Below, one piece after another: positions 1 to 28,949 of a DNA stretch of 64,000 nt. The notes below the pieces were generated by a model that was given only the letters and a program-made list of their open reading frames with translations, did not search any database and was not told where the DNA came from. This DNA is from Chlorobiota bacterium (GTDB lineage Bacteria > Bacteroidota > Ignavibacteria > OLB7). The stretch spans positions 62,001 to 126,000 of the forward strand of contig JAEUSP010000019.1 in assembly GCA_016788565.1 (NCBI GenBank), given 5' to 3'. Positions within the stretch are counted from its first letter, which is position 1, and each line of letters starts with the position of its first letter. The translations under genes and the position numbers were made by a program.

Positions 1-112
1 TTTATCTGCGTTGCTCCGAGAAGTTTTAGTTCCTATTTCAGAGCTAGTGGGAGAGAGTACATCTGAAGATGTGCTTAATAAGGTTTTTGGTTCTTTTTGC
101 ATTGGGAAGTAA
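1..112 (+). CDS. mnmE: tRNA modification GTPase MnmE, C-terminal end (partial)
   Basis: The reading frame begins at base 2 and runs to a TAA at 110-112, giving the last 36 residues of a protein cut by the window edge. The tail ends in FGSFCIGK, the conserved C-terminus of MnmE (TrmE), where the cysteine is essential for function. MnmE is a G-protein that works with MnmG to install the carboxymethylaminomethyl group on wobble uridine 34 of certain tRNAs. The next gene, 30 bp downstream on the same strand, is mnmG, which supports the call and suggests the two are co-transcribed. Only the tail is visible, so the GTPase domain cannot be assessed. Confidence 0.93.
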   Translation, partial: LSALLREVLVPISELVGESTSEDVLNKVFGSFCIGK

Positions 113-127
113 GTTCCACGTGAAACC
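112..127. promoter_or_regulatory. parS-like ParB binding site (imperfect)
   Basis: The 16-mer AGTTCCACGTGAAACC matches the broadly conserved parS consensus TGTTNCACGTGAAACA at 14 of 16 positions and keeps the CACGTG core with GAAAC. It begins on the last base of the mnmE stop codon. A second, fully palindromic copy lies just after mnmG at 1982-1997. ParB binding and the role in origin segregation are inferred from the known consensus. Confidence 0.7.
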
Positions 128-142
128 TCAAAAGGCAGCGAT

Positions 143-1969
143 ATGAGTAACTATTATGATGTCATCGTGATTGGCGGTGGACATGCAGGAATTGAAGCAG
201 CATCCGCAGCAGCAAGAATCGGTTGTTCTACCTGCCTGATTACAATGACCATTTCTGCAATTGGGCGATTATCATGTAACCCTGCTATTGGAGGCATGGC
301 TAAAGGGCAGATTGTTCGTGAAATAGATGCTTTAGGGGGGGAGATGGGGAGACTTGCAGACCTATCCGGAATTCATTTTAAGATGCTGGGAAAATCAAAG
401 GGGCCAGCGATGTGGTCGCCACGTTCCCAGAATGATAAAGACCTCTATCCATTTTTTGCTCAGAAGCGACTTCAAGAGATTGCAAACCTAATTCTTATAG
501 AGGGAATTGTTGATGATGTCGGTTTGCAAAACGGTGCTGTTTCTTCAGTCCTGTTGCAAAACGGGCGGCGCATTGAGTGTAAGTCGGTTGTTATTTGTTC
601 TGGCACTTTTCTATCAAGTCGCCTTCATATTGGTGAGCAATCAAAAATTGGAGGGCGGATTGATGAACCCTCGGCTGAGTCTTTAAGTGAAACCCTACGT
701 CAATATGGAATCGCTACCGGAAGATTAAAAACAGGCACTCCTCCGAGAATTCGTAAGGATAGTATTGATTGGAACTCTTGCACTCCTGATGTTGGAGATG
801 CTAATCCATCCCCCTTTTCTCGCGAAACAGAGGCTGTTACTAATCAAATTCAATGCTATCTAACAACAACGACTAAAGACACCCACCAAATTCTTGAATC
901 AGGGTTTGACCGTTCCCCCATGTTCACAGGCCGGATAACAGGTGCGGGACCGCGATACTGTCCATCAATCGAAGATAAGGTCTATCGTTTTTCAGATAAA
1001 AATGGGCATCAAATCTTTCTTGAGCCTGAAGGTCTTTCAACTGATTCTGTCTATGTTAATGGATTCTCCACCTCTCTTCCTGAGGGCATACAAGAGGATG
1101 CTTTACACACAATTCCCGGTCTAGAGAAATCTCAAATCCTGAGATATGGTTATGCCGTAGAGTATGACTATTTCCCATCCTATCAACTTCAACACTCTCT
1201 TGAAAGCAAGGCTGTTAAAGGGTTGTTTTTCGCCGGGCAAGTTAATGGAACATCCGGGTATGAAGAGGCTGCTGCACAAGGGTTAATAGCTGGCATGAAT
1301 GCAGCACTTGGCATCCAAGGTAAACCTCCAATTGTGTTAGACCGCTCGCAAGCCTATATCGGGGTGTTGATAGATGACTTAGTAAGCCTTACTATCAACG
1401 AGCCATATCGCATGTTTACTTCACGTGCCGAATATCGTTTGCTGTTGCGCCAGGATAATGCAGATATACGATTGACTCATATTGGCTATGAAGCTGGGTT
1501 AGTTGATAGAGAAACAGATAATGCCGTTCAAGCGTTGACAGAGTCAATCGAAACAGCACAATATCTGTTGAAAAACTATCGAATTAAAGAACAAGGTTCC
1601 AATGACCAAGCTGTTTCTCTGTGGCAATTACTCAAGCGTCCAGAAAGTTCGGTACAAACCATTCTTCATCACCTCTCTACTGACTCTCTATTAAGCAGAT
1701 TACTAACAAATGAAAGGCTGATTGAGCAGATAGAAATTGCTGCTCGCTATGATGGATATATTCAGCGTCAATTACAGGAGGTTGAACGATTAAAAGCTAT
1801 CGAAGAAAGCCAATTACCATCAACGATTAATTATAACTCCATCGTTGGTTTATCATCCGAAGGTCGAGAAAAGTTGACACGAGTCAGCCCACGGTCATTA
1901 GGTCAAGCATCAAGGATTAGCGGTGTTTCACGGTCGGATATAGCTATACTTTCAATGTATGTTCGATAG
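143..1969 (+). CDS. mnmG: tRNA uridine-5-carboxymethylaminomethyl modification enzyme MnmG
   Basis: This 608-residue protein is the FAD-dependent partner of MnmE. Together they form the 5-carboxymethylaminomethyl group on uridine 34 of tRNAs in the cytoplasm. The N-terminus has the FAD dinucleotide-binding motif GGGHAG (residues 11-16), followed by the family blocks SCNPAIGG, PRSQNDK, IGGRIDEPSAE and TGRLKTGTPPRI. The C-terminal helical region includes TSRAEYRLLLRQDNAD. The length is close to the usual 610-630 residues. The ATG at 143 puts the glycine-rich motif at the expected distance from the start. The gene follows mnmE by 30 bp and is bracketed by two parS-like sites. It is AT-richer than most of the window. 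Confidence 0.97.
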   Translation: MSNYYDVIVIGGGHAGIEAASAAARIGCSTCLITMTISAIGRLSCNPAIGGMAKGQIVREIDALGGEMGRLADLSGIHFKMLGKSKGPAMWSPRSQNDKDLYPFFAQKRLQEIANLILIEGIVDDVGLQNGAVSSVLLQNGRRIECKSVVICSGTFLSSRLHIGEQSKIGGRIDEPSAESLSETLRQYGIATGRLKTGTPPRIRKDSIDWNSCTPDVGDANPSPFSRETEAVTNQIQCYLTTTTKDTHQILESGFDRSPMFTGRITGAGPRYCPSIEDKVYRFSDKNGHQIFLEPEGLSTDSVYVNGFSTSLPEGIQEDALHTIPGLEKSQILRYGYAVEYDYFPSYQLQHSLESKAVKGLFFAGQVNGTSGYEEAAAQGLIAGMNAALGIQGKPPIVLDRSQAYIGVLIDDLVSLTINEPYRMFTSRAEYRLLLRQDNADIRLTHIGYEAGLVDRETDNAVQALTESIETAQYLLKNYRIKEQGSNDQAVSLWQLLKRPESSVQTILHHLSTDSLLSRLLTNERLIEQIEIAARYDGYIQRQLQEVERLKAIEESQLPSTINYNSIVGLSSEGREKLTRVSPRSLGQASRISGVSRSDIAILSMYVR

Positions 1970-1981
1970 GGAACGTTTTGA

Positions 1982-1997
1982 AGTTTCACGTGAAACT
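1982..1997. promoter_or_regulatory. parS ParB binding site (perfect palindrome)
   Basis: AGTTTCACGTGAAACT is a perfect 16-bp palindrome. It contains the 14-bp parS core GTTTCACGTGAAAC and differs from the consensus only at the two outermost bases. It lies 12 bp after the mnmG stop codon. With the copy at 112-127 it brackets mnmG, 1.87 kb apart. Scanning every CACGTG in the window found no third copy with the flanking GTTNC/GAAAC arms. Confidence 0.82.
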
Positions 1998-2167
1998 ATC
2001 AACCAAAAGCATGAAAAATGATAAAAAAACAACAATGATGCTGTTGAAGTGGCTCAAGTGATGCTGAAATCCATTTAATTTTTATAGAGGGTAGAGTAAC
2101 TACAAACTATCTTCAGTATAGAGTTGTTGTGCTACTCACGTACTTGGTTACTTAAAAGACTACTACC

Positions 2168-2587
2168 ATGATCGGCTTCATCGAACAATCCAAAAATCTT
2201 TCCGCTGCCCGCAATTCAACACGAATGGAGCTTTACAAAAGACTAAGCCAAGCACGTAGTTTCATTGAAGAGAATATAGACCAGCCCATTACTCTGTCGC
2301 AAGTCGCAGGTGTAGCTTGCTTATCTACTCATCATTTTTTACGGCTGTTTAAGCAAGTTTTTGAGGAGACACCGCACCAGTACCTAACCCGTAAACGCAT
2401 TGAGCGGGCAAAAGACCTGTTGTTAACTACACCTACATCTGTGAGTGATATCTGTCAATCCGTAGGTTTTAAAAGCCCAGGGTCTTTCAGCTGGCTTTTT
2501 CGACGGTGCGTAGGCTATTCTCCTGAGGGATTCAGAGCTATAAATAGTCAAAAGCAATCTATAACTACGGTGTCTACTGTTCGCTGA
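2168..2587 (+). CDS. AraC/XylS-family DNA-binding regulator (DNA-binding domain only)
   Basis: A 139-residue protein consisting almost entirely of a double helix-turn-helix AraC domain. The first HTH includes ITLSQVAGVACLSTHHFLRL. The linker helix carries YLTRKRIERAKDLL. The second HTH includes SVSDICQSVGFKSPGSFSWL and the typical ending RRCVGYSPEGFR. No ligand-binding domain is present; about 25 N-terminal residues precede the first HTH. Such stand-alone AraC domains act as transcription activators, but the target here is unknown. The next plus-strand gene set is the VOC cluster 460 bp downstream, a plausible but unproven target. The start is the first ATG of the frame. Confidence 0.88.
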   Translation: MIGFIEQSKNLSAARNSTRMELYKRLSQARSFIEENIDQPITLSQVAGVACLSTHHFLRLFKQVFEETPHQYLTRKRIERAKDLLLTTPTSVSDICQSVGFKSPGSFSWLFRRCVGYSPEGFRAINSQKQSITTVSTVR

Positions 2588-2616
2588 GGTAAGGCAATCG
2601 CACTGTAAATAGATGG

Positions 2617-2642
2617 CCAAAAAAACTAAAAAAGCAATTTTC
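2617..2642 (+). repeat. Direct repeat, copy 1 (A-rich, about 26 bp)
   Basis: An A-rich stretch starting CCAAAAA and ending AAAAAGCAATTTTC recurs almost unchanged at 2853-2877. The two differ only in the lengths of the two A-runs. The copies are 236 bp apart, on the same strand, and bracket a hairpin-rich region. Confidence 0.75.
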
Positions 2643-2665
2643 GATAGGAACTTTTAGAACAAAAC

Positions 2666-2689
2666 CCCGTTTGGCAAAGTGAAAACGGG
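2666..2689 (+). ncRNA. Hairpin in a possible structured RNA between the AraC gene and the VOC cluster
   Basis: CCCGTTT (2666-2672) pairs with AAACGGG (2683-2689) across a 10-base loop. Downstream, GTGCA and TGCAC around 2728-2748 can form a second short hairpin, and the strong terminator at 2752-2790 follows. The order hairpin, hairpin, terminator between two direct repeats would fit a small RNA or a leader element. No known RNA family is recognised. Confidence 0.35.
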
Positions 2690-2751
2690 TTGATGTATAC
2701 CGTTAACTGTATCAGTCATCATCATGGGTGCAGACTGACTGATGCACGTTG

Positions 2752-2790
2752 ATGCGCAAAGAGAGCACAATCTCTTTGCGCATTTTTTTT
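2752..2790 (+). terminator. Strong rho-independent terminator
   Basis: ATGCGCAAAGAGA (2752-2764) pairs perfectly with TCTCTTTGCGCAT (2771-2783) across the loop GCACAA, and a T-run follows. The 13-bp stem with its U-tract is the clearest terminator in the window. It lies 165 bp after the AraC stop codon, so it ends either a long AraC 3' UTR or a separate small transcript. Confidence 0.88.
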
Positions 2791-2852
2791 GCTTGGCGAT
2801 AAAATCGTTCGATTCTTTCTTCAGGCTACTAAAAAAGGACATCATTTGATAA

Positions 2853-2877
2853 CCAAAAACTAAAAAAAGCAATTTTC
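2853..2877 (+). repeat. Direct repeat, copy 2 (A-rich, about 25 bp)
   Basis: Near-identical to 2617-2642, starting CCAAAAA and ending GCAATTTTC. It lies just upstream of the candidate promoter element at 2905-2912. Confidence 0.75.
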
Positions 2878-2904
2878 AAGAAGTCGTTTATGGAAATTCA
2901 TTCA

Positions 2905-2912
2905 TACATTTG
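2905..2912 (+). promoter_or_regulatory. Candidate -7 promoter element for the VOC cluster
   Basis: TACATTTG matches the Bacteroidota -7 consensus TAnnTTTG exactly. It lies 137 bp before the first VOC gene and downstream of the strong terminator, as expected for the start of a new transcription unit. No convincing -33 TTTG is seen at the usual spacing. The leader between it and 3049 holds no gene. Confidence 0.4.
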
Positions 2913-3048
2913 CATGGTGTTCTTATGAAGACTTTTGATGAATGGATAAATCATCCAGTGCGGTGGTACTCTGAAATGGGTTCCGAATAGACAACAGTGC
3001 CAGATCATGGCAACCTCAATAAAAACTCACTAACAGGAGAGAAAGCTA

Positions 3049-3417
3049 ATGCCACGTGTCGTTCACTTTGAGATTGCTGCCGACAACACAGAACGCGCAG
3101 CGAAATTCTACGCAGACGTTTTTGGGTGGAACATCAACAAATGGGATGGCCCACAGGAGTACTGGTTGGTTTCTACTGGTGCGCGCGAAGCACTTGGGAT
3201 TGATGGAGGGATCATGAAGAAGATGGACAACCTTCCTGGCGTTATTAACACCGTAGATGTGGAATCAGTAGATGAATATGTGGAAAAAATTACTGCTGCC
3301 GGAGGAGGAGTTGTGGTGCCCAAAATGGCAATTCCGACCATCGGATACTTTGCGTACTGCCGTGATACCGAAGGCAATGTCTTTGGCATCATGGAAGGCG
3401 ATCCCAATGCGCAGTAG
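3049..3417 (+). CDS. VOC (glyoxalase/bleomycin-resistance fold) protein 1
   Basis: A 122-residue protein built as one vicinal-oxygen-chelate domain. It opens with VVHFEIAADN and ERAAKFYADVFGW, the paired beta-strand and helix typical of the family. It ends with GYFAYCRDTEGNVFGIMEGD, whose RDTEGN turn and closing glutamate are common in the YciF/PA-type glyoxalase-like group. His6 and Glu8 near the N-terminus and the C-terminal Glu are candidate metal ligands. A clear ribosome binding site (AGGAGAG) precedes the ATG. It is the first of five VOC genes in a row on the same strand. The substrate is unknown; no glyoxalase I activity is claimed. Confidence 0.88.
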   Translation: MPRVVHFEIAADNTERAAKFYADVFGWNINKWDGPQEYWLVSTGAREALGIDGGIMKKMDNLPGVINTVDVESVDEYVEKITAAGGGVVVPKMAIPTIGYFAYCRDTEGNVFGIMEGDPNAQ

Positions 3418-3471
3418 CTCTGAGCGGCTATTGAGCGAGATGCTAAATCATCAAACAGATTAGGAGAAGCC

Positions 3472-3834
3472 ATGCAACATGCCATTACTTGGTTTGAGAT
3501 ACCGGTACAAAACATAAACCGTGCTGCCGATTTCTATGGAACAATCCTTGATGCGGAATTGAATCGAGGGGAAATGGGGGGGTACGAAATGGCTTTTTTC
3601 CCAACAACAGGCGTTGGTGGAGCTTTGGTACAGGGGCGAGGGTATATCCCTACGGAAAACGGAGTGATCACCTACCTCTATGTTGGTGATGATGTAAGCA
3701 CCGTACTCTCACGGGTTGAGGATGCGGGTGGAGATATTCTTCAGCCCAAAACCCTTATTACTGAAGACATCGGATATATGGCCTTCATTCGCGACACGGA
3801 GGGTAATCGCATAGGATTACACGGTATCGGGTGA
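3472..3834 (+). CDS. VOC (glyoxalase-like) protein 2
   Basis: A 120-residue single VOC domain. It starts ITWFEIPVQN, then NRAADFYGTILDAEL, and closes with GYMAFIRDTEGNRIGLHGIG. It has the same layout as the preceding gene, including the RDTEGN turn, so the two are probably paralogues from a local duplication. GGAGAAGCC upstream gives a plausible ribosome binding site. It lies 54 bp after VOC protein 1. The substrate is not recognised; a role in small-molecule binding, isomerisation or detoxification is possible only by family analogy. Confidence 0.88.
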   Translation: MQHAITWFEIPVQNINRAADFYGTILDAELNRGEMGGYEMAFFPTTGVGGALVQGRGYIPTENGVITYLYVGDDVSTVLSRVEDAGGDILQPKTLITEDIGYMAFIRDTEGNRIGLHGIG

Positions 3835-3869
3835 GGCAGTATATCATCACAATCAAGAAGGAAACAATC

Positions 3870-4412
3870 ATGCACGATAGCCTGCAGGCAATGGATCTTC
3901 AGCGGATTGGCCACGAGCGGTTGGCAATCGCCGCAGCGGCGACATCCAGAGATGACTGGAACGCGATAGCTGCCAGCCTTCCCCACCGCTTTCCGTTTGA
4001 GTGGGGGGAATGCTGGCGGCAATCCACCGAATATCGGGTTTGCGATTTTGCCGCCGAAGTCGGTTTCTATACCGATGTCTTGGGGTGTAGCATCATGGTG
4101 TTAAGCGACACCTACGCAATGTTTACCAGCCCCGATAACGCTTTCAATGTTGCCTTCGTACCTGCTGTTCCGGGGGAGGAAACCCCACCCCATGCAATTG
4201 CCATCGAGTTCATGGTGAATCACATTGCGCAAACGGTTAAGAATCTGCAAGATCGTGGTGTTGTGTTCGAGGCGTTGCCAAGCCCACCAACATCACAGCC
4301 AATCCTAACAACGGCTGCTTTCCGCACCCCCAACGCAATTCAAATCCGCTTGTGGTCGGTGGTTCAACCCAAGGTAGATAACAACGTAGCCATACCAATG
4401 GAGGAGCAATAA
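3870..4412 (+). CDS. VOC-fold protein 3 with N-terminal extension
   Basis: A 180-residue protein starting at the ATG at 3870, which follows the ribosome binding site AAGGAAAC. A GTG 39 bp upstream is also in frame but overlaps the previous stop codon. About 55 residues (LQRIGHERLAIAAAATSRDD and following) precede a VOC-like half starting DFAAEVGFYTDVLGCSIMVL. The domain continues AFRTPNAIQIRLW, with a divergent closing strand. The N-terminal part is not recognised. The stop overlaps the start of the next gene by one base (TAATG), so translation of the two is probably coupled. It is more diverged than its VOC neighbours, and metal ligands are not obvious. Confidence 0.75.
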   Translation: MHDSLQAMDLQRIGHERLAIAAAATSRDDWNAIAASLPHRFPFEWGECWRQSTEYRVCDFAAEVGFYTDVLGCSIMVLSDTYAMFTSPDNAFNVAFVPAVPGEETPPHAIAIEFMVNHIAQTVKNLQDRGVVFEALPSPPTSQPILTTAAFRTPNAIQIRLWSVVQPKVDNNVAIPMEEQ

Positions 4413-4798
4413 TGCCAACAGGAGCTATTGTCTGGCACGATTTAACGGTGCCGGATGCTGAAAACATCAAGGAGTTCTACAGCCACGTTATCGGCTGGGA
4501 GACCAAGCCGCACCCAATGTGTGACGACTTCAACGCCATCATTCCCGAGACTGGCGAAACCATTGCAGGGATTTGCCATGCACGTGGTGTCAACGCCGGA
4601 ATTCCACCGCAATGGCTGATATACGTTGAGGTGGATAACGTTCTGGAAAGCATCGAGCGGTGCAAAGAACTTGGCGGCACAGTTGCCTATGGCCCGCGCT
4701 CAATCGGAACACATAACTTCTGCGTGATCCAAGACCCCGCAGGTGCTGTTGTTGGGTTAATTGAAACCGTTAAAACAACGGAAACTCTGGAAGCGTAA
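4412..4798 (+). CDS. VOC (glyoxalase-like) protein 4
   Basis: A 128-residue VOC domain beginning TGAIVWHDLTVPDAENIKEF with YSHVIGWETKPH, and ending FCVIQDPAGAVVGLIE. This resembles the group of VOC proteins with the QDPxGAxxGL closing strand. The ATG overlaps the previous stop by one base, which indicates translational coupling. His and Asp in VWHD, and the closing Glu, are candidate ligands. The function is unknown; its place between other VOC genes and a ThiS-like gene is the main clue. Confidence 0.88.
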   Translation: MPTGAIVWHDLTVPDAENIKEFYSHVIGWETKPHPMCDDFNAIIPETGETIAGICHARGVNAGIPPQWLIYVEVDNVLESIERCKELGGTVAYGPRSIGTHNFCVIQDPAGAVVGLIETVKTTETLEA

Positions 4799-4834
4799 CC
4801 CTGTTCCTTTCCCGAATCTTACAAGCAACCAGCT

Positions 4835-5107
4835 ATGGCCGTTGTCCACTTTACCAGCCATCTTTCAAAGTTTTTTCCTGGTTTACGGGAAGTGAACGTT
4901 GAGGCTGTAACCGTAGCCGAGTTGGTGCAAAGGCTTGATGAACGCCATCCAGGAATTGCTTCCTACTTGATAGAAGATCACGGCGGATTGCGCAAGCACG
5001 TCAACATCTTCGTAAATCAAAATCTGATCCGCGACCGAAAAACATTAAGCGACCCGCTTACCGACAATGCCGAGGTTCATATCCTGCAAGCCTTGTCGGG
5101 GGGGTAA
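4835..5107 (+). CDS. ThiS/MoaD-like ubiquitin-fold protein with C-terminal Gly-Gly
   Basis: A 90-residue beta-grasp protein. It has VTVAELVQRLDERHPG, then HVNIFVNQNLIRD, then DNAEVHILQALSGG, ending in a free Gly-Gly. ThiS, MoaD and related small modifiers use this dipeptide: an E1-like enzyme adenylates it and converts it to a thiocarboxylate, or joins it to targets. No thiamine or molybdopterin synthesis genes are adjacent; the neighbours are VOC proteins and a BNR propeller. A MoeB-rhodanese fusion that could activate it lies at 27638-28822. Whether it delivers sulfur, modifies proteins or serves another pathway cannot be told from sequence. Confidence 0.85.
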   Translation: MAVVHFTSHLSKFFPGLREVNVEAVTVAELVQRLDERHPGIASYLIEDHGGLRKHVNIFVNQNLIRDRKTLSDPLTDNAEVHILQALSGG

Positions 5108-5139
5108 TCGCTATCACCAACCCAAACCAAAGGGATGCC

Positions 5140-5520
5140 ATGCCACGCTGCACAGCAATCGTTCCGTTTATACCGGGGGGTAAAGATGTTCTGGCAACAG
5201 CACAGTTCTACATTCACCACCTGGGCTTTCAGCAAGGGTGGGATGATGGGGCTACACCCCCGCAAAACCTTGAACTCCACCGTGATGCAATCTCGTTCGT
5301 GCTGTATCAAACCGATAATCGCTTGCTTTCAGAATGGTCCACTTTCAGGATTGAGGTTCAGGATGTCGAGGGGTTGTACAACCACCTGAAAGCCACTGCC
5401 CCGGAAGCAATCCACCGGAATGGCGCGTTGGGAATCCGCCCCTGGGGCGCAACCGAGTTTGCGGTGCTTGATCCCACGGGCGTTTGCATCACCTTCTATG
5501 AATTCCCCAAAGCCGAATAG
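5140..5520 (+). CDS. VOC (bleomycin-resistance-like) protein 5
   Basis: A 126-residue VOC domain. It begins CTAIVPFIPGGKDVLATAQF with YIHHLGFQQGWD, has a central FRIEVQDVEGLYNHL, and closes with RPWGATEFAVLDPTGVCITF. This pattern is typical of the bleomycin/glyoxalase-like subgroup and differs from the RDTEGN type of the first two genes. It starts 33 bp after the ThiS-like gene and is followed 51 bp later by the propeller gene, all on one strand. The substrate is unknown, and actual bleomycin resistance is not implied. Confidence 0.86.
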   Translation: MPRCTAIVPFIPGGKDVLATAQFYIHHLGFQQGWDDGATPPQNLELHRDAISFVLYQTDNRLLSEWSTFRIEVQDVEGLYNHLKATAPEAIHRNGALGIRPWGATEFAVLDPTGVCITFYEFPKAE

Positions 5521-5571
5521 CTACGCGATTCAACGACCATCAATCACCAGACAAAGTACGAGGTGAACCGA

Positions 5572-6672
5572 ATGCCAAGCTCACGACTTTTTTTAGGAAC
5601 ACGAAAAGGACTGTTTACGCTGGAACGGAGCAACATAGGCTGGGAAGTCAGCCGCGAACAGTTCAAGGGCGCACCTGTCTCCTATGCTGCCGATGATTAC
5701 CGCAACGGTGCGGCGTGGGCTTGCTTAGATCATGGCCATTGGGGAACCAAACTTCACCGCTCCTTTAATGGGGGTGAACGCTGGGAAGAAATCCCAGCAC
5801 CCAAATATCCAGAAGGGGCAGAAATCACCCCCGGCACACCAGCAACGCTGCGCTACCTCTGGTCAATGGCGGTTGGCGGGGAAGATCAACCAAGCACAAT
5901 CTACTTCGGGACCGAGCCGGGCGGGTTGTTCCGCAGCGATGATTATGGCGACAGCTTCAATATCGTTGAAGGGTTGTGGAATCATCCTTCACGCCTCACG
6001 AAATGGTTCGGCGGTGGGCGCGATTATGCCGGAATCCACTCCATCATTGTTGATCCGCGCAACAGCAATCGGGTGTTGGTTGCCGTGAGTTGTGCGGGGG
6101 TGTTCCAGACAAACGATGGCGGCGAAACATGGCAACCAAAAAATAGAGGGATGCTGGCGGAATTTCTGCCAAATCCCGAAGATGAAGTCGGCCAAGACCC
6201 ACACCTGATGGTTGCTTGCCCAGCCAATCCCGACGCGCTGTGGCAGCAAAACCACTGCGGCATTTTCCGAAGCACCGATGGAGCCGAGAATTGGATGCAG
6301 GTCTCGCAGCCCGGCGGCCCAGCATACTTCGGTTTTCCGGTTGCGGTTGATGAACAGAATCCTGAAGTGGCATGGGTTGTTCCCGCCGCCAGCGATGAGG
6401 TTCGCACGGCAATTGAGGGGGCACTTCTGGTGTGCCGCACCGATGACGGCGGGCAAAGTTGGACTCAGCTTCGCCAGGGGCTTCCGCAACAGCATTGTTA
6501 CGATGTCGTCTTCCGCCACGCGCTGGATATTTCTGGCGATACGCTGGCGTTCGGCACCACAACCGGCAACCTGTTTGTTTCGGACGATCGTGGCGAATCG
6601 TGGAGCTGCATCGGCAATTATTTCCCGCCGATTTACTCGGTGCGATTCGGGCGTTTCAGCAGCAGCAACTAA
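5572..6672 (+). CDS. BNR-repeat beta-propeller (sialidase-like fold) protein
   Basis: A 366-residue protein with repeated BNR/Asp-box turns: RSFNGGERWEE, RSDDYGDSFN, QTNDGGETWQPKNRG, RSTDGAENWMQV, RTDDGGQSWTQLRQGL and VSDDRGESWSCIG. It therefore folds as a six- or seven-bladed propeller. The start is set at the ATG at 5572, with GAGGTG 8 bp upstream; a GTG three codons earlier is the alternative. No signal peptide is seen, so it is probably cytoplasmic. The catalytic residues of true sialidases are not evident. It is the last gene of the VOC/ThiS-like cluster. Confidence 0.87.
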   Translation: MPSSRLFLGTRKGLFTLERSNIGWEVSREQFKGAPVSYAADDYRNGAAWACLDHGHWGTKLHRSFNGGERWEEIPAPKYPEGAEITPGTPATLRYLWSMAVGGEDQPSTIYFGTEPGGLFRSDDYGDSFNIVEGLWNHPSRLTKWFGGGRDYAGIHSIIVDPRNSNRVLVAVSCAGVFQTNDGGETWQPKNRGMLAEFLPNPEDEVGQDPHLMVACPANPDALWQQNHCGIFRSTDGAENWMQVSQPGGPAYFGFPVAVDEQNPEVAWVVPAASDEVRTAIEGALLVCRTDDGGQSWTQLRQGLPQQHCYDVVFRHALDISGDTLAFGTTTGNLFVSDDRGESWSCIGNYFPPIYSVRFGRFSSSN

Positions 6673-6731
6673 CCACCTCACTCTCCATCTTCACACTTGA
6701 ACATCCAACATTCACACAACCAACTTAACCG

Positions 6732-7304
6732 ATGATCCGCTTATCACTGCTTGCCGTTTTGTTCACGTTGCTCACGGGTTCCACGTTGCTTGCCCAGGGT
6801 GGGGAAGGAGCGATGCCCGATGAGATGATGATGAATGCCATGCCTGGCCCCGGCCACGAACCGCTGAAGCAGATGCTTGGTGCTTGGGATCAAAAAGTGA
6901 TTGTGACGATGATGCCAGGAATGCCACCAATGGAGGGGAGCGGCACAGCCGAAAATGCAATGATCTTAGGTGGGCGGTACGTTGAGGGGAATGGAGTAAT
7001 CACGGCAATGGGAATGACCGCAAAAACCAAAATGTTCACCGGCTACGATAATCGCCGCAGCAAGTATTTCCTGTTCGCGATTGATGAGTTGGGGACCTAT
7101 GCCGTCACCGCCGAAGGGGAGTATGACGCTGCAAAACGGATGTGGACTTTCCATGGTGTTGAAGATGATGGAAAGCAGAAAATGAAATTCCGCATTACCA
7201 CCCAGATGGTCGGTGATTCGCAAATGAACAGTGAGATTGTTTTCATCATGCCCGACGGAACTGAACACCGAGCGGTCCGTGTAGAAAGTAAACGTCGGGC
7301 ATGA
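6732..7304 (+). CDS. Exported DUF1579-family protein
   Basis: A 190-residue protein with an N-terminal signal peptide (LSLLAVLFTLLTGSTLLAQG) followed by a Met-rich segment. The DUF1579 domain includes KQMLGAWDQKVIVTMMPG, GGRYVEGNG, FTGYDNRRSKYF and MWTFHGVEDDGKQKMKFRI. Family members are small calycin-like beta-barrels of unknown function. It ends 23 bp before the stop codon of a convergent gene. No co-transcribed partner is clear; it may be read from the VOC cluster (59 bp gap) or alone. Confidence 0.82.
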   Translation: MIRLSLLAVLFTLLTGSTLLAQGGEGAMPDEMMMNAMPGPGHEPLKQMLGAWDQKVIVTMMPGMPPMEGSGTAENAMILGGRYVEGNGVITAMGMTAKTKMFTGYDNRRSKYFLFAIDELGTYAVTAEGEYDAAKRMWTFHGVEDDGKQKMKFRITTQMVGDSQMNSEIVFIMPDGTEHRAVRVESKRRA

Positions 7305-7327
7305 ACTTCTCTATCTCCCGCTTCTTG

Positions 7328-8020
7328 TTATCGCCGTTGCCTGCGTTGCTCTTCACTGCCGATCAACGTAATCCTGTCAGACTCAAAAACATTCACCCCG
7401 TGAAGCTCTTGGTTGGCGATCCAAATCATTGCTTGCGCCACCGTTTGCGCAGCAATGGGGCGGTAGCGGCGTAGCCCGCCAAACATCAGCGGCGACAGCG
7501 CGCGGAACAGTATGGTTCCCATCCGTTCGCCAAATCGCTCTTCGGTTCGTTCGCCAGTTAAAAATGACGGGCGGAAGACTTGAAGCCCCTGGTAGGGCAG
7601 GCCCCGTAATGCCTGCTCGATCTCACCTTTCACGCGGCTGTAAAACACCCGCGAGCGTGCGCTTGCGCCGATTGAGCTGACCAGCAAAAACTGCGTCGCC
7701 CCACCTTCTACGGCTCGTTTCGCCAGCTCGTGAACATAGGTGAAGTCAACTTTGTAGAACTGGTCTCGGGTGCGGGCTTTGTGGATGGTGGTTCCTAATG
7801 TGCAGAAGACGTGGTCGGAGGCGGGGAAATCTGGAAGGCGGGGGATAAGGTCGAAGTTGATGACGCGCTGCACCAATTTGGGGTGAAACGCCGCGGCCGA
7901 CAACTGCCGACGAACAAGAACGATGACCCGCTCGTAACGGTCATCGGCAAGAAGTTGTTGAAGGCAATGCCCCCCCACAAGTCCGCTTGCGCCCACAAGA
8001 AGCGCGGTGCGTTTGGTCAT
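7328..8020 (-). CDS. NAD(P)-binding Rossmann oxidoreductase (HTATIP2/atypical SDR-like)
   Basis: A 230-residue protein. The start is set at the ATG at 8020, just before TALLVGASGLVGGHCLQQLL. This carries the glycine-rich GASGLVG nucleotide-binding motif at the very N-terminus; an upstream in-frame ATG would add 17 unrelated residues. Further family marks are FCTLGTTIHKARTRDQFYKV, LLVSSIGASARSRVFYSRVK (SSIGA with YxxxK) and VFRPSFLTGERTE. This layout matches small atypical short-chain dehydrogenases related to eukaryotic CC3/HTATIP2. The substrate is unknown. It stands alone, convergent with the DUF1579 gene. Confidence 0.82.
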   Translation of the reverse strand: MTKRTALLVGASGLVGGHCLQQLLADDRYERVIVLVRRQLSAAAFHPKLVQRVINFDLIPRLPDFPASDHVFCTLGTTIHKARTRDQFYKVDFTYVHELAKRAVEGGATQFLLVSSIGASARSRVFYSRVKGEIEQALRGLPYQGLQVFRPSFLTGERTEERFGERMGTILFRALSPLMFGGLRRYRPIAAQTVAQAMIWIANQELHGVNVFESDRITLIGSEEQRRQRR

Positions 8021-8167
8021 AAATATTCCCGATGTGTCACGTGTGCAGTTGGCTAAGTTTGGGGGCTGCAAAAGCGTTCATCGCGGGGAAACGCTCAATC
8101 ACTGGCGGAAAGTTCCGTCGGAAAATTTCTCGGAAAATTTCGTGGTCAATATCGGCAGTGGGTACGC

Positions 8168-9055
8168 TTACTCACCCTCATCCCCGTGGTGGATGCGTTC
8201 CTCCACCCCAATTCTGCCGCTGTCAATCGTGTCACCTTGAACGGTGATGCACCAAAATTTCAGTTCTACCCCCGTGGCTTCCATCAGCATTGCTGCGTGG
8301 GCACCGCTAAAGCGAACTTGGCTTTGCGGAACCCCTGCTCGCTCAGGATAGATATTGGCTCCACCCAACCCATTCACGAAGTACGGAATCCCTTCAACGT
8401 GCAGCCGCTCGTACACATGCTCGTGGCCAGCTAACACGACCGATGCTCCCCAAGCCGTAAATGGCCATTGCATTGCCGTGTCCGGCTGATGATTTATCCC
8501 TGATGATAGATACGGAGGGTGATGGAAATAGACGATCTTCCAGGGCGCAGCTGCCTCCGCCAATCGCTCCTTCAGCCAACGGGCTTGGATTGATGTATCG
8601 CTCTTTCCGTCAGGCTCATGCTTGTCGCTGTCAAGGGCAAAAAAATGGATGGGGCCTTGCCGGAACTCGTAGTAGCGTTCATTCCCCGGCAGGGTGAAGT
8701 ATTCCAAATATGGCTTTGCCCCGGGTGTGTACCAGTCGTGGTTGCCAAGCGATGGGTAGAAGCGATTGACCGTTCCACCCGCGCCAAACTTCCCCCGGTA
8801 GGGGTGGATAAACTGGTGGTAGTATTGCCCGATATTTTGGTCAATCGTTGTGTCCGAGCCACGCGGATAGTTGTTGTCGCCAACGGTGATGATAAGGTCC
8901 GGATTCCAGCTTTGCACCAGCCTGGCAACCGCTGCTTCGTTCGCCCCAGCTTTGCCGTAATCGCCGATGACGGCAAAACGGAGTACGCTATCCTGGCAGT
9001 AGAGCTGACAGCAGAGTGAGGCTGACCAGAAGAGCAAAGCAAAGAGGAATCGCAT
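8168..9055 (-). CDS. Exported metallophosphoesterase (purple acid phosphatase-like)
   Basis: A 295-residue protein with a signal peptide (FLFALLFWSASLCCQLYCQ). A calcineurin-like catalytic domain follows with the metal-binding blocks FAVIGDYGKAG, TVGDNNYPRG, PSLGNHDWY, YFHHPPY and LAGHEHVYERL. The order D, GDxxY, GNHD, HH, GHxH is complete, so the enzyme is probably active. The GDNNY and GHEHVYER signatures resemble purple acid phosphatases and related extracellular phosphoesterases. It ends in a beta-rich segment. It lies 21 bp downstream of purM on the same strand and may be co-transcribed. Confidence 0.9.
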   Translation of the reverse strand: MRFLFALLFWSASLCCQLYCQDSVLRFAVIGDYGKAGANEAAVARLVQSWNPDLIITVGDNNYPRGSDTTIDQNIGQYYHQFIHPYRGKFGAGGTVNRFYPSLGNHDWYTPGAKPYLEYFTLPGNERYYEFRQGPIHFFALDSDKHEPDGKSDTSIQARWLKERLAEAAAPWKIVYFHHPPYLSSGINHQPDTAMQWPFTAWGASVVLAGHEHVYERLHVEGIPYFVNGLGGANIYPERAGVPQSQVRFSGAHAAMLMEATGVELKFWCITVQGDTIDSGRIGVEERIHHGDEGE

Positions 9056-9076
9056 GGCAGGAGGGAGGATAAACGG

Positions 9077-10096
9077 TTAGCCTTGCTCCGTGACTTCCCC
9101 AATCACCACCGGCTGCTCCCCCAGTTCTTGCAATCGGGCAATCACAGAATCTGCGGCGTTTGGCGCGGCCACTATCACCAGCCCGATCCCAAGATTCATT
9201 GCTTGCTGGATGTCTTCTTCCGGCACGTTCCCTTCGCGCTGAATCATCCTGAAAATTGCTGGGCGTTCCCACGCGCTCCAATCAATGGATAGTTGCAGCG
9301 GTTGGCGCACCACGCGCGAAGTGTTCCCAACAAGCCCGCCGCCAGTGATGTGGGAGTAGGCATGAACTCCATCAATATCACACGTCGCTTGAATGGCACC
9401 AAGGTAGGAACGATGCACCGCCAGCAACGCTTCGCCGATTGTTTGGTCGCTATCGTGAACCCGATCCTGAAGTGTGAAACGGGGGAAGAGAACCGCGCGC
9501 GCAAGTGAGTAGCCGTTGGTGTGCAGCCCGGTGCTGGGCAGGCCAATCAGCAGATCGCCCGCCGCCGAGTTGTTGCCAACAATCATCTTGGAACGCTCAA
9601 CAACGCCAACAATCGTTCCCGCCAAATCGAACTCACCATCGTGGTACATCGAAGGCATCTCGGCTGTTTCCCCGCCGATTAACGCTGCGTTGTTTTGGCG
9701 GCAAGCAACCGCGAACCCACTAATTACATCGGCAGCAACCGCAGGGTTCAGCCGCCCGGTGGCGAAGTAATCCATGAAGAAAAGCGGAACCGCGCCGCAG
9801 ACTGCGATGTCGTTCACGCAGTGGTTCACAAGGTCCTGGCCGACGGTGCCGTAGCGTTCGGCCATGAAGGCAACTTTCAGTTTTGTCCCAACTCCATCCA
9901 CCGAGGAAACCAGCACCGGCTGGTCGTATTCTTTCAGGAAACTGACATCGTACAATCCGCCAAACCCGCCGATGTCGGCAAGCACACGGCTGTTAAAGGT
10001 GGAGCGAACCATCGGCTTGATTCGGCTGACGGTCTCTTCCCCAGCTTCGATATCAACGCCAGCGGTTTTGTAGGTGATTGCTGATTCGGTGGTCAT
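9077..10096 (-). CDS. purM: Phosphoribosylformylglycinamidine cyclo-ligase (AIR synthase)
   Basis: A 339-residue PurM. It catalyses ATP-dependent ring closure of FGAM to aminoimidazole ribotide in purine synthesis in the cytoplasm. Signatures include YKTAGVDIEAGEE near the N-terminus, GGFGGLYD, SSVDGVGTKLKVA, GQDLVNHCVNDI, LIGGETAEMP, GLPSTGLHTNGYSLAR and HITGGGLVGN. The length is typical. A minus-strand TATCTTGC at 10152-10159, inside the end of the upstream kinase gene, may be its promoter. A second purine gene, purE, is at 38793; the two are not clustered. Confidence 0.97.
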   Translation of the reverse strand: MTTESAITYKTAGVDIEAGEETVSRIKPMVRSTFNSRVLADIGGFGGLYDVSFLKEYDQPVLVSSVDGVGTKLKVAFMAERYGTVGQDLVNHCVNDIAVCGAVPLFFMDYFATGRLNPAVAADVISGFAVACRQNNAALIGGETAEMPSMYHDGEFDLAGTIVGVVERSKMIVGNNSAAGDLLIGLPSTGLHTNGYSLARAVLFPRFTLQDRVHDSDQTIGEALLAVHRSYLGAIQATCDIDGVHAYSHITGGGLVGNTSRVVRQPLQLSIDWSAWERPAIFRMIQREGNVPEEDIQQAMNLGIGLVIVAAPNAADSVIARLQELGEQPVVIGEVTEQG

Positions 10097-22106: not shown

Positions 22107-24512
22107 TTATTTCACCCCATCATCAAACACCATCCCTTTATTCCCCTTCACCACCACTGTGCCGGGCCGAACTCGAGGCTCCACGTAGTAATCATCCCCG
22201 CGCCCCATATCCAACAGCAGTCCCAGCGAGCCATGCTTTCGTGGGCGGTTGAAATTTCCCCCGCCCTGGCTGTTGGTGGTGTCGCTAATCCTGATGTAGT
22301 ATTGGTCATCCCCCTGGTAGTCCAGCAGCCACGCAAACGAGACGTTCAGTGCCGATCCTTGGCTGGTGGTGGAGCCTCGGTAGGTGTCGTTTCCGGCGCG
22401 GTCTTCCAAGCAACCGCTGGACCAGTCGTGGGCGTTCCCTTGCTCAAGGCCGTGATAGGCATCGTACATGTCGTCGCCGGCATCATCCAGCAGCGCGCCA
22501 AAGGAAAGGTGAATGCCGCTCCCTTGCGAATACTGCCCAGCGGTGTAGCGGTCGTAGCCCTGGGCATCGTGAAGAATGCCAAGCGCGTACCAGTAGCTTC
22601 CCCCCTGGCTGAAAAAATCGCTGGCATACAGGTCGTTCCCCTGGCGGTCGCTAAGCAGGCCGATCCCGCCATCGGTTCCAACGCCGGTGGTCCAGGGGCG
22701 CATTCCGTAGCCGAACCCCTGCGACATCGCCAAATGTGCCCGCCCGGGATAGCGCGAGTCGGGAATTTTCCAGCCAGCGCGGTAGCTGTCGTTTCCGTCG
22801 GCTTCCAGAATTGCTCCGTATCCGCGTGCGTAACCGAAGGCTTGCGAGAAAACCTCTGCAGAGTATTGATCGGCCCCGCCCCCTTCCCAAATTATTCCGG
22901 CCCCCAAAAATCCCGCCCCTTGCGAACACCACCGTGCAGTGTACACGTCATCCCCAGCAAAGTCGGCCAGGATGCCAACCCCCAGCAGCCCCGCCCCTTG
23001 CGAGAACATTCCGGCGCGGTAGGTGTCGTTCCCTTCAATGTCCACCAGCATATCCACGGCCCCAATTCCGGCGGCTTGCCCGGTGGTGTTGCTTTGGTAC
23101 AGGTCGTTCCCCTTCACATCAATCAGCAATCGGAAGGAGCCAACGGTGGCTGGGGGAAGCTGATAAACATCATCCCCCCCAACATCCATGATGAACGCAA
23201 ACGTGCCGTTGTAGCGGTTTGGCCCCGGCCCGCCAATCACGCAGCGGCCTTGCGGCGTAATCCATTCGCGAATTACCACCCCGGTTACTCCATCGGTGAT
23301 TTGTTTGGTGGAGTTTGTCGGGATTGTGGCCGCCGTCCGCCGAATCCATCCGGTGTCGGCCAGCGCGGCCAGCATCTGCGCGGCGGTGAAAAGTGCGGCC
23401 ATATCTACGTTGTCTGATTCGGCAAACAGTGTGGCCATGCGCGATTCCTGTTCGTTGCGTGCTTTGCGGCGGCGGGTGCGGTCGGCGATGGAGTCCAGCA
23501 AGGTTTCCCAGTCGTGCTCAATATCCAGAATCCGCATCAGCCGCGTGGTCAGCGAATCAAGGTTGCTGCGGACGGGCAAGTAGGCCTTGTCCAACTGCGC
23601 TTGCACCGCTGCAAAGCCATCGGCAATGTTCTCCAAACTGGCTGGCCGCACGCCGGTTGGCGAACCAAGCCGAAGGTCCAGCGCGTGGCCGGCAGCCCAC
23701 AACGCCCCGGCAACTCCATCTGCCCCAAAGGAACTCCACGCTTCTTCCGACAAATACCGTGAGTAGGCCGCCAGCCGTGTGGGGTGGTTGTGCAAGTAGG
23801 TGACGGCGTTCAATCGCCACGGGTTCGGGCGGCCAGCAAACGGGACGGTGCAAAAATCTTGGTCGCTAATCACCCGCATCTGCTTCTTGATCGTATCGCT
23901 CCAGCCAGTAAGCTGCTGTTCGGCTAAGGCTTGTGCCAACCAACTCTGCTGCGTTGCCGGAAACACCGGCCGCCCGTTGAATGTTGGTTCCAGAAATGGC
24001 ATTGGTGTTCGGATTGCCGCTGCCAGCCGGATTGGGATTTCCCTCACCACTCCATCCCGCAGAATGCTGAACCACGCCGTATCCCCCTGCTGCATATCGC
24101 GGGCGGTGATGGCCATGTATTCATCCCCCTGGTACAGGCTATCGCCGATTGGTTTGCCGTTCATTGATAGAAGAATATCGCCGATAAAAATCCCCGATTC
24201 ATCGGCTGGCCAGTGGGGCATCAGGTGCCAAACCTTGAACCCTGTTGCTGCGGCCGGGAAGCCTGCCAACCCCTTTGCGGTGTCGGTAGGAACTTGGCTG
24301 CTGTAGATGCCAAGCCGTGGGCGAAGCGGGTCGGGGGTGGCGGGCCACTCAAACGTTGGAAGATCAACAATCCGTAGGCTTTCGCGAATCAGTGAATCCA
24401 AGCGCAAGGGTTGGGCGGTGCTGGGGGTGATGCAGCAGAAGAGGATGAACCACAGAGGCACAGAGATCACAGAGGAAGAAAGTGAAAGGGAGCGCGGAAA
24501 TTGGATGCTCAT
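22107..24512 (-). CDS. Exported PDZ protein with about 12 GNDxY/SQG repeats
   Basis: An 801-residue protein starting at the ATG at 24512, with a signal peptide (SVISVPLWFILFCCITPSTA). A PDZ-like domain follows (about residues 60-165; GFKVWHLMPHWPADESGIFI, GDILLSMNGKPIGD), then a helical middle region. The last 365 or so residues are about 12 repeats of roughly 26-28 residues built on G-[ND]-D-x-Y, often followed by SQG and a glycine-rich LLxDxxG strand: EGNDTYRAGMFSQGAG, AGDDVYTARWCSQGAG, QGNDLYASDFFSQGG. The repeats resemble a beta-solenoid but match no family I can name. Regular Asp placement may bind calcium. The function is unknown. Confidence 0.75.
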   Translation of the reverse strand: MSIQFPRSLSLSSSVISVPLWFILFCCITPSTAQPLRLDSLIRESLRIVDLPTFEWPATPDPLRPRLGIYSSQVPTDTAKGLAGFPAAATGFKVWHLMPHWPADESGIFIGDILLSMNGKPIGDSLYQGDEYMAITARDMQQGDTAWFSILRDGVVREIPIRLAAAIRTPMPFLEPTFNGRPVFPATQQSWLAQALAEQQLTGWSDTIKKQMRVISDQDFCTVPFAGRPNPWRLNAVTYLHNHPTRLAAYSRYLSEEAWSSFGADGVAGALWAAGHALDLRLGSPTGVRPASLENIADGFAAVQAQLDKAYLPVRSNLDSLTTRLMRILDIEHDWETLLDSIADRTRRRKARNEQESRMATLFAESDNVDMAALFTAAQMLAALADTGWIRRTAATIPTNSTKQITDGVTGVVIREWITPQGRCVIGGPGPNRYNGTFAFIMDVGGDDVYQLPPATVGSFRLLIDVKGNDLYQSNTTGQAAGIGAVDMLVDIEGNDTYRAGMFSQGAGLLGVGILADFAGDDVYTARWCSQGAGFLGAGIIWEGGGADQYSAEVFSQAFGYARGYGAILEADGNDSYRAGWKIPDSRYPGRAHLAMSQGFGYGMRPWTTGVGTDGGIGLLSDRQGNDLYASDFFSQGGSYWYALGILHDAQGYDRYTAGQYSQGSGIHLSFGALLDDAGDDMYDAYHGLEQGNAHDWSSGCLEDRAGNDTYRGSTTSQGSALNVSFAWLLDYQGDDQYYIRISDTTNSQGGGNFNRPRKHGSLGLLLDMGRGDDYYVEPRVRPGTVVVKGNKGMVFDDGVK
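24448..24480 (+). repeat. Dispersed repeat AACCACAGAG..., copy B
   Basis: AACCACAGAGGCACAGAG followed by a third ACAGAG unit. It aligns with the minus-strand copy at 11590-11619, with most positions identical. Here it lies within the N-terminal (signal peptide) coding part of the PDZ protein on the opposite strand. Confidence 0.6.
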
Positions 24513-24678
24513 GGCTGCGTTGCTGGTTTGCGTTGGAAGGGGGGGCAATATATCGCCCGCAAGATTACCGCTTGCAACGGCAGATTGGCCGGGGAGGTGT
24601 GAGAAGGGTTTTGTAAGTTCGCCCACAAAACGCTGGATAGCTTCCTACTCAATCCGCATCAACACACCGCATCAACCA

Positions 24679-25782
24679 ATGACCGAAACTTCGCTGAAAC
24701 GCACAGCTTTCTACGACCTCCATCTGGCTGCCGGAGCCAAAATTGTTCCCTTCGCCGGGTTTGAGATGCCGGTGTCGTATCGGGGAATTGTTGCCGAGCA
24801 CACCGCCGTTCGCCAGCGGGTTGGGGTGTTCGATGTCTCCCACATGGGTGAGGTTCTGGTGACAGGGCCAAACGCCTTGGACTTTGTGCAAAAAATCACC
24901 GTCAACGATGCCGCGACGCTAACCGTTGGCCAAGCTCAGTACAGCGCAATGTGCCGCCCCGGTGGCGGCATTGTGGATGACCTTCTGGTCTATTTCCGTG
25001 GCCCAGAACACTACCTGCTGGTGATTAACGGGGCCAACATTGATAAAGACTTCGCGTGGATGCAGCAGAACGCCATCGAAGGAGCAACGCTGGTGAACGC
25101 TTCTGACGATTACTCACTTCTTGCAGTCCAAGGGCCGAAGTCGCTGGAAACCTTGCAGAAGCTGACCACCACCGACCTGAGCGCGATTGAATACTACCAC
25201 TTTGCCGAAGGGGAAATCGCTGGCGTGCCGGCAATCATTTCCCGAACCGGATACACTGGCGAACTTGGGTTTGAACTCTATTTCAGCAGCAACCGCCAGC
25301 CCAGCGAAACTGTCTGGAATGCGGTGATGGAAGCGGGCGCAGAGTTCGGTATCGAGCCAACCGGCTTGGGCGCGCGCGACACGTTGCGGCTGGAGATGGG
25401 CTTCTGCCTGTACGGCAACGACATCACCGACGACACCAACACGATTGAGGCCGGTTTGGGCTGGATCACAAAGCTGGAGAAAGGTGAGTTCAACGGGCGG
25501 GAAGCCCTGGCGGCGGTGAAGGCCGCAAAGCCATCGCGGAAGTTGGTGGCGTTCCTGATGAGCGAGCGGGGGATACCGCGCCAGCACTACAAAATCGCTG
25601 CCGAAGGGCGCGAAGTTGGCGAAGTCACCAGCGGTACGTCGTCGCCCATGTTGGGGCAAGGAATTGGGATGGGGTATGTTGAGTCCGGGTTTGCAAAAAC
25701 CGGAACGGAAATCGCCATCGTCATTCGCGACAAACAAATTCCCGCAACGATTGTGAAGCTCCCGTTTGTGAAAAAAGGGTGA
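24679..25782 (+). CDS. gcvT: Glycine cleavage system T protein (aminomethyltransferase)
   Basis: A 367-residue GcvT. It transfers the aminomethyl carbon from the lipoyl H protein to tetrahydrofolate, releasing ammonia. Signatures: KRTAFYDLHLAAGAKIVPFA, VFDVSHMGEVLVTG, QYSAMCRPGGGIVDDLLVY, ISRTGYTGELGFELYF, ARDTLRLEMGFCLYGNDI and VGEVTSGTSSPMLGQGIGMG. The ATG at 24679 places these at normal distances; the open frame extends 372 bp further upstream but is not conserved-looking. TAAGTTCG at 24614-24621 may be its -7 element. A hairpin terminator follows. Other gcv genes are not in this window. Confidence 0.97.
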   Translation: MTETSLKRTAFYDLHLAAGAKIVPFAGFEMPVSYRGIVAEHTAVRQRVGVFDVSHMGEVLVTGPNALDFVQKITVNDAATLTVGQAQYSAMCRPGGGIVDDLLVYFRGPEHYLLVINGANIDKDFAWMQQNAIEGATLVNASDDYSLLAVQGPKSLETLQKLTTTDLSAIEYYHFAEGEIAGVPAIISRTGYTGELGFELYFSSNRQPSETVWNAVMEAGAEFGIEPTGLGARDTLRLEMGFCLYGNDITDDTNTIEAGLGWITKLEKGEFNGREALAAVKAAKPSRKLVAFLMSERGIPRQHYKIAAEGREVGEVTSGTSSPMLGQGIGMGYVESGFAKTGTEIAIVIRDKQIPATIVKLPFVKKG

Positions 25783-25796
25783 TGCTGACATTGCAG

Positions 25797-25828
25797 AAAA
25801 AAGGGGAGCCTCGTGGTTCCCCCTTCTT
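25797..25828 (+). terminator. Hairpin terminator after gcvT
   Basis: AAGGGGAGCC (25801-25810), loop TCGT, GGTTCCCCCTT (25815-25825). A-rich sequence lies before the stem and TTCTTCC after it. The stem has one G-U pair and one bulged C. It lies 15 bp after the gcvT stop. Confidence 0.65.
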
Positions 25829-25862
25829 CCATTCTTGATCGCAACCTCCTAAAGTTCTCCCT

Positions 25863-27502: not shown

Positions 27503-27542
27503 TGCCGAATGCTGAATGCCGAATGCCGAATGCTGAATGTGA
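27501..27542 (+). repeat. Six-unit tandem heptamer repeat
   Basis: The units AATGCCG, AATGCTG, AATGCCG, AATGCCG, AATGCTG and AATGTGA are head to tail. The array begins within the stop codon of the HTH-cupin gene. It is followed by the hairpin CGCAGG (27549-27554)/CCTGCG (27562-27567). Confidence 0.8.
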
Positions 27543-27583
27543 GGTAGGCGCAGGTCTTTAGCCTGCGGCAATAATGGGGGATG

Positions 27584-27619
27584 CCGAGTTCGGGGCAAAC
27601 TCGTTGCCCCGAAATTCGG
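27584..27619. repeat. Inverted repeat between convergent genes
   Basis: TTCGGGGCAA (27589-27598) and TTGCCCCGAA (27604-27613) are perfect 10-bp arms around ACTCG, with outer CCGA/TCGG. It lies 19 bp after the moeB stop on the minus strand. No T-run follows on either side, so it may be a repeat-type palindrome or a rho-dependent end rather than a classical terminator. Confidence 0.6.
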
Positions 27620-27637
27620 TCAAGATTCCAGCGTGAT

Positions 27638-28822: not shown

Positions 28823-28855
28823 TGGGCTGGGTGTTGCATGGTAGAAATTTTTTGG

Positions 28856-28882
28856 CCAAGATAGCACCGCAAGTTCAATCAA
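28856..28882 (-). promoter_or_regulatory. Candidate promoter for moeB
   Basis: On the minus strand TTG (28880-28882), 16 bp, then TATCTTGG (28856-28863), 34 bp before the ATG. This approximates the Bacteroidota-like pattern with a short spacer. Confidence 0.35.
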
Positions 28883-28949
28883 CTTACTCAGTCCTCTTCA
28901 ACGATAATTCGGTTGGCTTCGTTCTCCGCTTTGCCTAATTTCCGGCGCA

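Follow-up and report, generated by a model that had tools for sequence, protein, structure and literature searches.

A ThiS/MoaD-family carrier gene and an Asp-box propeller gene form a conserved pair inside a VOC gene cluster of a Chlorobiota bacterium

What joins a ubiquitin-like sulfur carrier, a beta-propeller, and five small VOC proteins in one row of genes? The question is raised by positions 3049 to 6672 of a 64,000-nucleotide stretch of contig JAEUSP010000019.1 from a Chlorobiota bacterium (this whole stretch is referred to here as the window). An original prediction, made from the sequence alone, had described seven genes in this region, and all seven open reading frames (ORFs) were found there on the forward strand, including a TAATG overlap formed by the stop codon of VOC3 and the start codon of VOC4 (positions 4410 to 4414). 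The prediction had taken the VOC genes, the ThiS/MoaD-family carrier gene (ThiS), and the Asp-box propeller gene (BNR) as one combination. This is not what has been conserved: other genomes keep ThiS together with BNR, and the full five-VOC set was found in this genus only. The conserved core is the ThiS-BNR pair, not the VOC set, and the two genes look like an undescribed working pair.

A scan of contigs with a BNR alignment covered the best 80 of 359 confirmed relatives, whose record titles name Bacteroidota, Chlorobiota, Verrucomicrobiota, Planctomycetota, Chloroflexota, Gemmatimonadota, Poribacteria, and Eisenbacteria, along with a gammaproteobacterium. In 71 of these 80, across at least nine phyla, BNR has a ThiS-family ORF as its same-strand neighbor, and the gap between the two genes is typically ~20 bp and mostly 0 to 100 bp. 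The same arrangement is seen in annotated records of plasmids or megaplasmids: a “MoaD/ThiS family protein” adjoins an “exo-alpha-sialidase” in Pseudomonas aeruginosa and Mitsuaria and lies beside a “hypothetical protein” in Burkholderia stagnalis, and, by tblastn positions, the two genes also lie together in more records from Burkholderia, Cupriavidus, and Paraburkholderia. The order is reversed (BNR-ThiS) in a second deep clade that includes Actinomycetota; on the BNR tree this is a single event, with adjacency preserved on either side. Other Pfam families are each seen at most three times among 66 operonic neighbors of the pair. In the phylum of the window, the propeller was present at an E value of ≤1e-20 in 10 of 395 genomes drawn, and the module is therefore sporadic. 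One genome of the same family (G004, locus L028) has the pair without VOC genes. Another (G002, locus L155, positions 7047 to 8569) encodes a second, divergent BNR paralogue that overlaps a divergent ThiS-like gene with an IGAIAGG tail, with an AHSA1-domain gene nearby; pairing therefore reaches a distant propeller clade. No description of a ThiS-propeller pair was found in the literature searched, which did not extend to subscription papers or preprints. The operon survey of Iyer (2006; PMC1779556) gives other types of ThiS/MoaD operons and contains no propeller or sialidase term.

The carrier itself (positions 4835 to 5107, forward strand) is a beta-grasp protein of 90 residues that matches PF02597 at 46.4 bits (cutoff, 22.5) and ends in ILQALSGG, which agrees with the predicted ThiS/MoaD-like protein with a terminal Gly-Gly. 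Its AlphaFold2 model has a pLDDT of 90.1, and the nearest folds are CysO (4n6e and 3dwg) and SAMP1 (3po0). Among the pair-linked ThiS proteins (n = 90), 82 end in ALSGG and almost all end in Gly-Gly, R53 and H55 are invariant, and the signature of the group consists of H55, Q85, and the QALSGG tail. Under a looser model, H55 is present in 87 of 91 BNR-linked rows. Of the 12 rows that are not linked, 11 have F or Y at this position and end in P-x-I-A-G-G instead of QALSGG. The sole nonlinked row with H55 (1 of 12) is the ThiS of G002 that sits with a VOC3 homologue. Some linked rows depart from the R-x-H-V/I pattern: L127, L162, and L166 keep the His and have Leu next, and the linked proteins that lack the His are that of L164 and the paralogue in L155 (the same as L151). 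A small ThiS tree, built on few columns, likewise separates linked from other rows, with the exception of the VOC3-associated ThiS of G002. The pair-linked carrier is a subfamily of its own, distinct from the ThiS, MoaD, and CysO carriers.

Comparison with curated models and with the rest of the genome places this carrier outside ordinary thiamine and molybdenum cofactor synthesis, as the prediction had supposed. It scored 16.1 with the thiamine ThiS model TIGR01683 (equivalog cutoff, 37.45), 34.4 with TIGR01687, an archaeal-type subfamily of MoaD (cutoff, 49.5), and 38.8 bits with SAMP1 (NF041918), which is below the equivalog cutoff of 60 but still the best NCBIfam match. The genome carries a separate thiamine thiS in a ThiO-ThiG-like operon on another contig (C111), and its only moaE lies on contig C26, where it adjoins another ThiS-family gene rather than the carrier gene. 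No thiamine or molybdopterin genes were seen among the ORFs of positions 1 to 9500 and 24000 to 32000, the stretches annotated. The candidate activating enzyme is an E1-like MoeB-rhodanese protein encoded at positions 27638 to 28882 on the reverse strand (PF00899, 269 bits; PF00581, 48 bits), to which the prediction had also pointed. Within the genome, it is the one PF00899 match, and no second ThiF/MoeB-family protein was found. CysO resembles the carrier in fold (TM-score of 0.85 to 0.87 with the Mycobacterium tuberculosis and Amycolatopsis proteins), in length, in its terminal Gly-Gly, and in probable activation by an E1. However, none of the genes of the CysO system (a CysM-like synthase, a Mec-type JAMM protease, and an E1) is found at the carrier locus, where the dedicated neighbor is a propeller, and the CysO type has F or Y and P-x-I-A-G-G where this carrier has H55 and QALSGG. 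Furthermore, some relatives hold both kinds of carrier in one genome. G004 and G007 have the ThiS-BNR pair as well as a CysO-type set with genes for a cysteine-synthase-like protein, a JAMM-like protein, a carrier, and a MoeB-rhodanese protein; these names were read from the starts of the sequences, except for a fused protein that was checked with profiles. The latter, in G007 (L032, positions 876 to 2318), combines ThiS and MoeB-rhodanese in one chain beside the JAMM-like and cysteine-synthase-like genes and represents a CysO-type carrier fused to an E1. Such fusions are also indicated at L016 to L019, L022, and L023, where ThiS lies in ORFs of a similar length.

The propeller gene lies at positions 5563 to 6672 on the forward strand, although translation probably starts at the ATG at 5572, which is later than listed and is preceded by GAGGTGA. 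The prediction of a BNR propeller is borne out by matches to the Sortilin/Asp-box repeats of Pfam, and the protein has no evident signal peptide. The NCBI label for such proteins, exo-alpha-sialidase, was rejected: there was no match to a sialidase profile, the matches being of the Sortilin/BNR/YCF48 type only, with F510_1955 below its cutoff. The protein belongs to the 3b7f type of Asp-box propellers. A phmmer search aligned residues 9 to 364 with 3b7f (E value, 9e-62), and the AlphaFold2 model is a confident propeller (pLDDT, 93.7) for which the best Foldseek match is again 3b7f (TM-score, 0.88; 35% identity in the structure alignment). Both are single seven-bladed Asp-box propellers that match over their full length, and no difference between them is known. 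After 3b7f, the next fold matches are GH74, YCF48 (HCF136), and sortilin, at 13 to 19% identity over the structure alignment; these share the Asp-box propeller fold, but GH74 enzymes have two propellers, and the peptide binding of YCF48 and sortilin takes place in other settings. Many residues outside the Asp-boxes are conserved, including H214, Q229, H231, R281, and R318. The 3b7f structure, released in 2007, is that of Reut_B4987 from Ralstonia eutropha JMP134, described as a seven-bladed propeller with its function listed as “not known” (PMC2716378).

The five VOC proteins around the pair were likewise confirmed, since all score above the PF00903 (Glyoxalase/VOC) cutoff of 20.6 bits, and all are encoded on the forward strand. 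VOC1 (3049 to 3417; 35.3 bits) and VOC2 (3472 to 3834; 32.7 bits) are single-domain proteins, with VOC1 related to 2r6u (E value, 3e-18) and to Rv0577 (3oxh; 7e-14). VOC3 (3831 to 4412; 34.7 bits) has a VOC domain with a conserved N-terminal extension and probably starts later than listed, at the ATG at 3870, which is preceded by AAGGAA. VOC4 (4412 to 4798; PF18029, 30.7 bits; PF00903, 30.2 bits) is like Rv0577 (4e-20 with 3oxh). VOC5 (5140 to 5520; 22.2 bits), which lies between ThiS and BNR, resembles bleomycin-binding proteins of the BLMA/Ble kind (38.3 bits with NF033156, for which the cutoff is 140; 2e-4 with 1jie). In contrast to those known Rv0577-like and bleomycin-binding proteins, the VOC proteins here are single half-domain proteins whose genes lie in tandem in the same row as ThiS and BNR. 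The aligned letters of the five distant proteins contain no common metal quartet (His/Glu), although this alignment is weak.

Gene order in a second genome of the genus (G001, locus L026) is AraC-VOC1-VOC2-VOC3-VOC4-ThiS-VOC5-BNR-DUF1579, which is the order in the window. The cluster is not a chance arrangement, because the same order is kept in G001. The gene set itself is thus retained in a close relative, a check that the prediction had named. Its bounds need to be redrawn: the seven genes stand as described, but they are not the complete set, since an AraC-family gene and a leader lie upstream and a DUF1579 gene lies downstream. The last of these (6732 to 7304, forward strand; PF07617, 97 bits), whose product has a signal-peptide-like N terminus, lies directly after BNR in the window and in G001 alike and is a possible member of the operon. 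The public record of G001 (JADZEY010000034.1; L045/L026) is titled Armatimonadetes, at odds with its place beside Chlorobiota-type relatives, and is probably a mislabeled metagenome-assembled genome.

Upstream of the VOC genes, the AraC-family regulator (2168 to 2587, forward strand; PF12833, 78 bits; PF00165, 65 bits) consists of 139 amino acids, is of the size of SoxS and MarA, and has the DNA-binding part only. G001 keeps it upstream of its own cluster, and a 389-amino-acid form is found near the ThiS and VOC3 genes of G002. A repeat search found two copies of a direct repeat on the forward strand, at 2617 to 2642 (AAAAAACTAAAAAAGCAATTTTC) and at 2853 to 2877, and both copies (23 nucleotides) are retained in G001; they could be operators for the AraC protein. 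Copy 2 lies upstream of TACATTTG (2905 to 2912, forward strand), which we take to be a candidate promoter −7 element of the Bacteroidota type, presumably following the consensus TAnnTTTG. Between the AraC gene and VOC1, flanked by the two repeats, is a structured leader or small RNA (2655 to 2795, forward strand) with a predicted folding energy of −50.4 kcal/mol (z = −5.0 versus shuffled sequences). Its 3' end is a perfect intrinsic terminator, ATGCGCAAAGAGA-GCACAA-TCTCTTTGCGCAT-T8, and it is 83% identical in G001. It is not a dispersed repeat, being present in a single copy in its own genome, and no Rfam family matched above its gathering score, with only a subthreshold match to Aar (E value, 0.18).

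Regardless of how the VOC genes came to lie here, the pair calls for an explanation, and a role for the ThiS-like protein as a sulfur carrier or tag, as originally suggested, is judged to be fitting. We propose, with a probability of about 0.5, that a dedicated carrier and a dedicated propeller form a two-gene module that is activated by the E1, with the VOC set joined to it here. The MoeB-rhodanese E1 would adenylate the C-terminal glycine of ThiS, and its rhodanese domain would be used to turn that C terminus into a thiocarboxylate. The propeller would then dock the ThiS tail, either to use the sulfur itself, as the enzyme acting on a small molecule, or to present it, as a scaffold. Around the pair, a five-VOC set under putative AraC control would have been built in this genus, with one VOC gene between ThiS and BNR, and the VOC proteins may bind or convert the substrate or product. 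That the cluster serves small-molecule modification or detoxification, as first suggested, is an unproven guess. Stated more broadly, and more tentatively, the pair may belong to another, as yet undescribed kind of bacterial pathway built on a ubiquitin-like sulfur carrier: a dedicated carrier marked by H55 and QALSGG would deliver sulfur (or itself) to a dedicated Asp-box propeller in at least nine phyla, in some lineages with VOC proteins.

Several observations weigh against the proposed module. No ThiS neighbor was found at 9 of the 80 BNR loci, although one of these ends at the end of its contig, and in G002 the nearest BNR (L154) and the H55 ThiS (L027) are on different contigs. Genes for an E1, a rhodanese, or a JAMM protein are not generally found beside the pair, with a ThiF domain in 1 of the 66 neighbors. 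ThiS-BNR fusion proteins, which were sought as proof of contact, were not found. Nearly all other pair loci lack VOC genes, as judged with the VOC proteins of the window as queries, which distant VOC proteins could escape. Finally, peptide binding without catalysis is known among related Asp-box propellers, for example, YCF48 and sortilin.

The last point leads to the reading that ThiS is a noncatalytic partner whose tail the propeller holds; the pair would then involve no sulfur chemistry and would be a chaperone, a sensor, or an assembly factor. The models would be YCF48, which holds the C-terminal peptide of D1, and sortilin, which holds that of neurotensin; the fold matches of BNR include YCF48 bound to D1 peptide and sortilin with peptide ligands, and conservation of QALSGG extends well past the two glycines. 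A near-invariant terminal Gly-Gly is, however, the mark of E1-activated carriers, and the conserved His, Arg, and Gln residues of the propeller suggest a role beyond tail binding, so we regard this reading as decidedly doubtful. Ubiquitin-like tagging, in which the activated ThiS would be joined to target lysines in the manner of SAMP1 and Urm1, with the propeller as receptor, adaptor, or chief target, is unlikely but has somewhat more to recommend it. These modifiers share the beta-grasp fold and the Gly-Gly tail, they are among the best folds of the carrier, SAMP1 provides its best if subthreshold NCBIfam match, and adaptor roles are frequent for propellers. Yet the CysO-type carriers are nearer in both sequence and fold, no deconjugase-type (Prok-JAB) protein scored above the family cutoff in the genome, and no E2- or E3-like neighbors of the pair recur. 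Least probable by far is that the protein is a spare carrier for thiamine, molybdopterin, or cysteine synthesis, to which its Pfam family and its CysO-like fold might point. The missed TIGR01683 and TIGR01687 cutoffs argue against this, and ordinary service in these routes was rejected, for thiamine and the molybdenum cofactor by the separate thiS and moaE-adjacent genes of the genome and for CysO by the loci of that type that coexist with the pair in G004 and G007.

The VOC genes may be judged apart from these readings of the pair, with any of which the following is compatible: they could be an independent, AraC-regulated set for drug binding or detoxification that came to lie in an unrelated ThiS-BNR operon merely by insertion. 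This is a serious possibility, if not the one we favor, for the full set belongs to one genus, whereas the pair is old and mostly VOC-free, and VOC5 resembles bleomycin-binding proteins. A VOC-ThiS-BNR trio was rejected as a general unit on the absence of VOC genes noted above and of any recurring third partner, and the five VOC genes around the pair are a lineage-specific addition. Nevertheless, partial links to VOC genes are found in two further genera of the family and in one more distant family, and they argue against mere insertion. Beside ThiS-BNR in G003, of the same family (L029), are a two-domain VOC gene in divergent placement and a VOC3 homologue, and in G002 (L027) a VOC3 homologue stays alongside ThiS on one contig with the longer AraC gene. 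In G252, from another family of the phylum (L160), BNR, ThiS, and a VOC gene are consecutive; here the pair has the reversed order, BNR-ThiS, the VOC protein is 39% identical to VOC4, and TAAATG joins the stop codon of ThiS to the start codon of the VOC gene. VOC and YciI genes also lie beside the pair, on the opposite strand, in a P. aeruginosa record. In that record, a plasmid (NZ_CP133752.1; L125), the surroundings of the pair also include genes for a sigma factor, a thioredoxin-family protein, and an MFS transporter. No relatives of VOC3 were found in plasmids.

The routes known to use ubiquitin-like sulfur carriers in bacteria are those for thiamine, molybdopterin, cysteine, and tRNA and a few for natural products. 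The ThiS-BNR pair is present in culturable strains (Niastella, Roseivirga, and Cupriavidus metallidurans) and is therefore directly testable. If the proposed module is correct, a carrier that has a propeller as its constant partner would extend the known sulfur-carrier routes by one and possibly provide a sulfur-accepting protein fold, and 3b7f, without a known function since its release, would gain a partner and a testable role.

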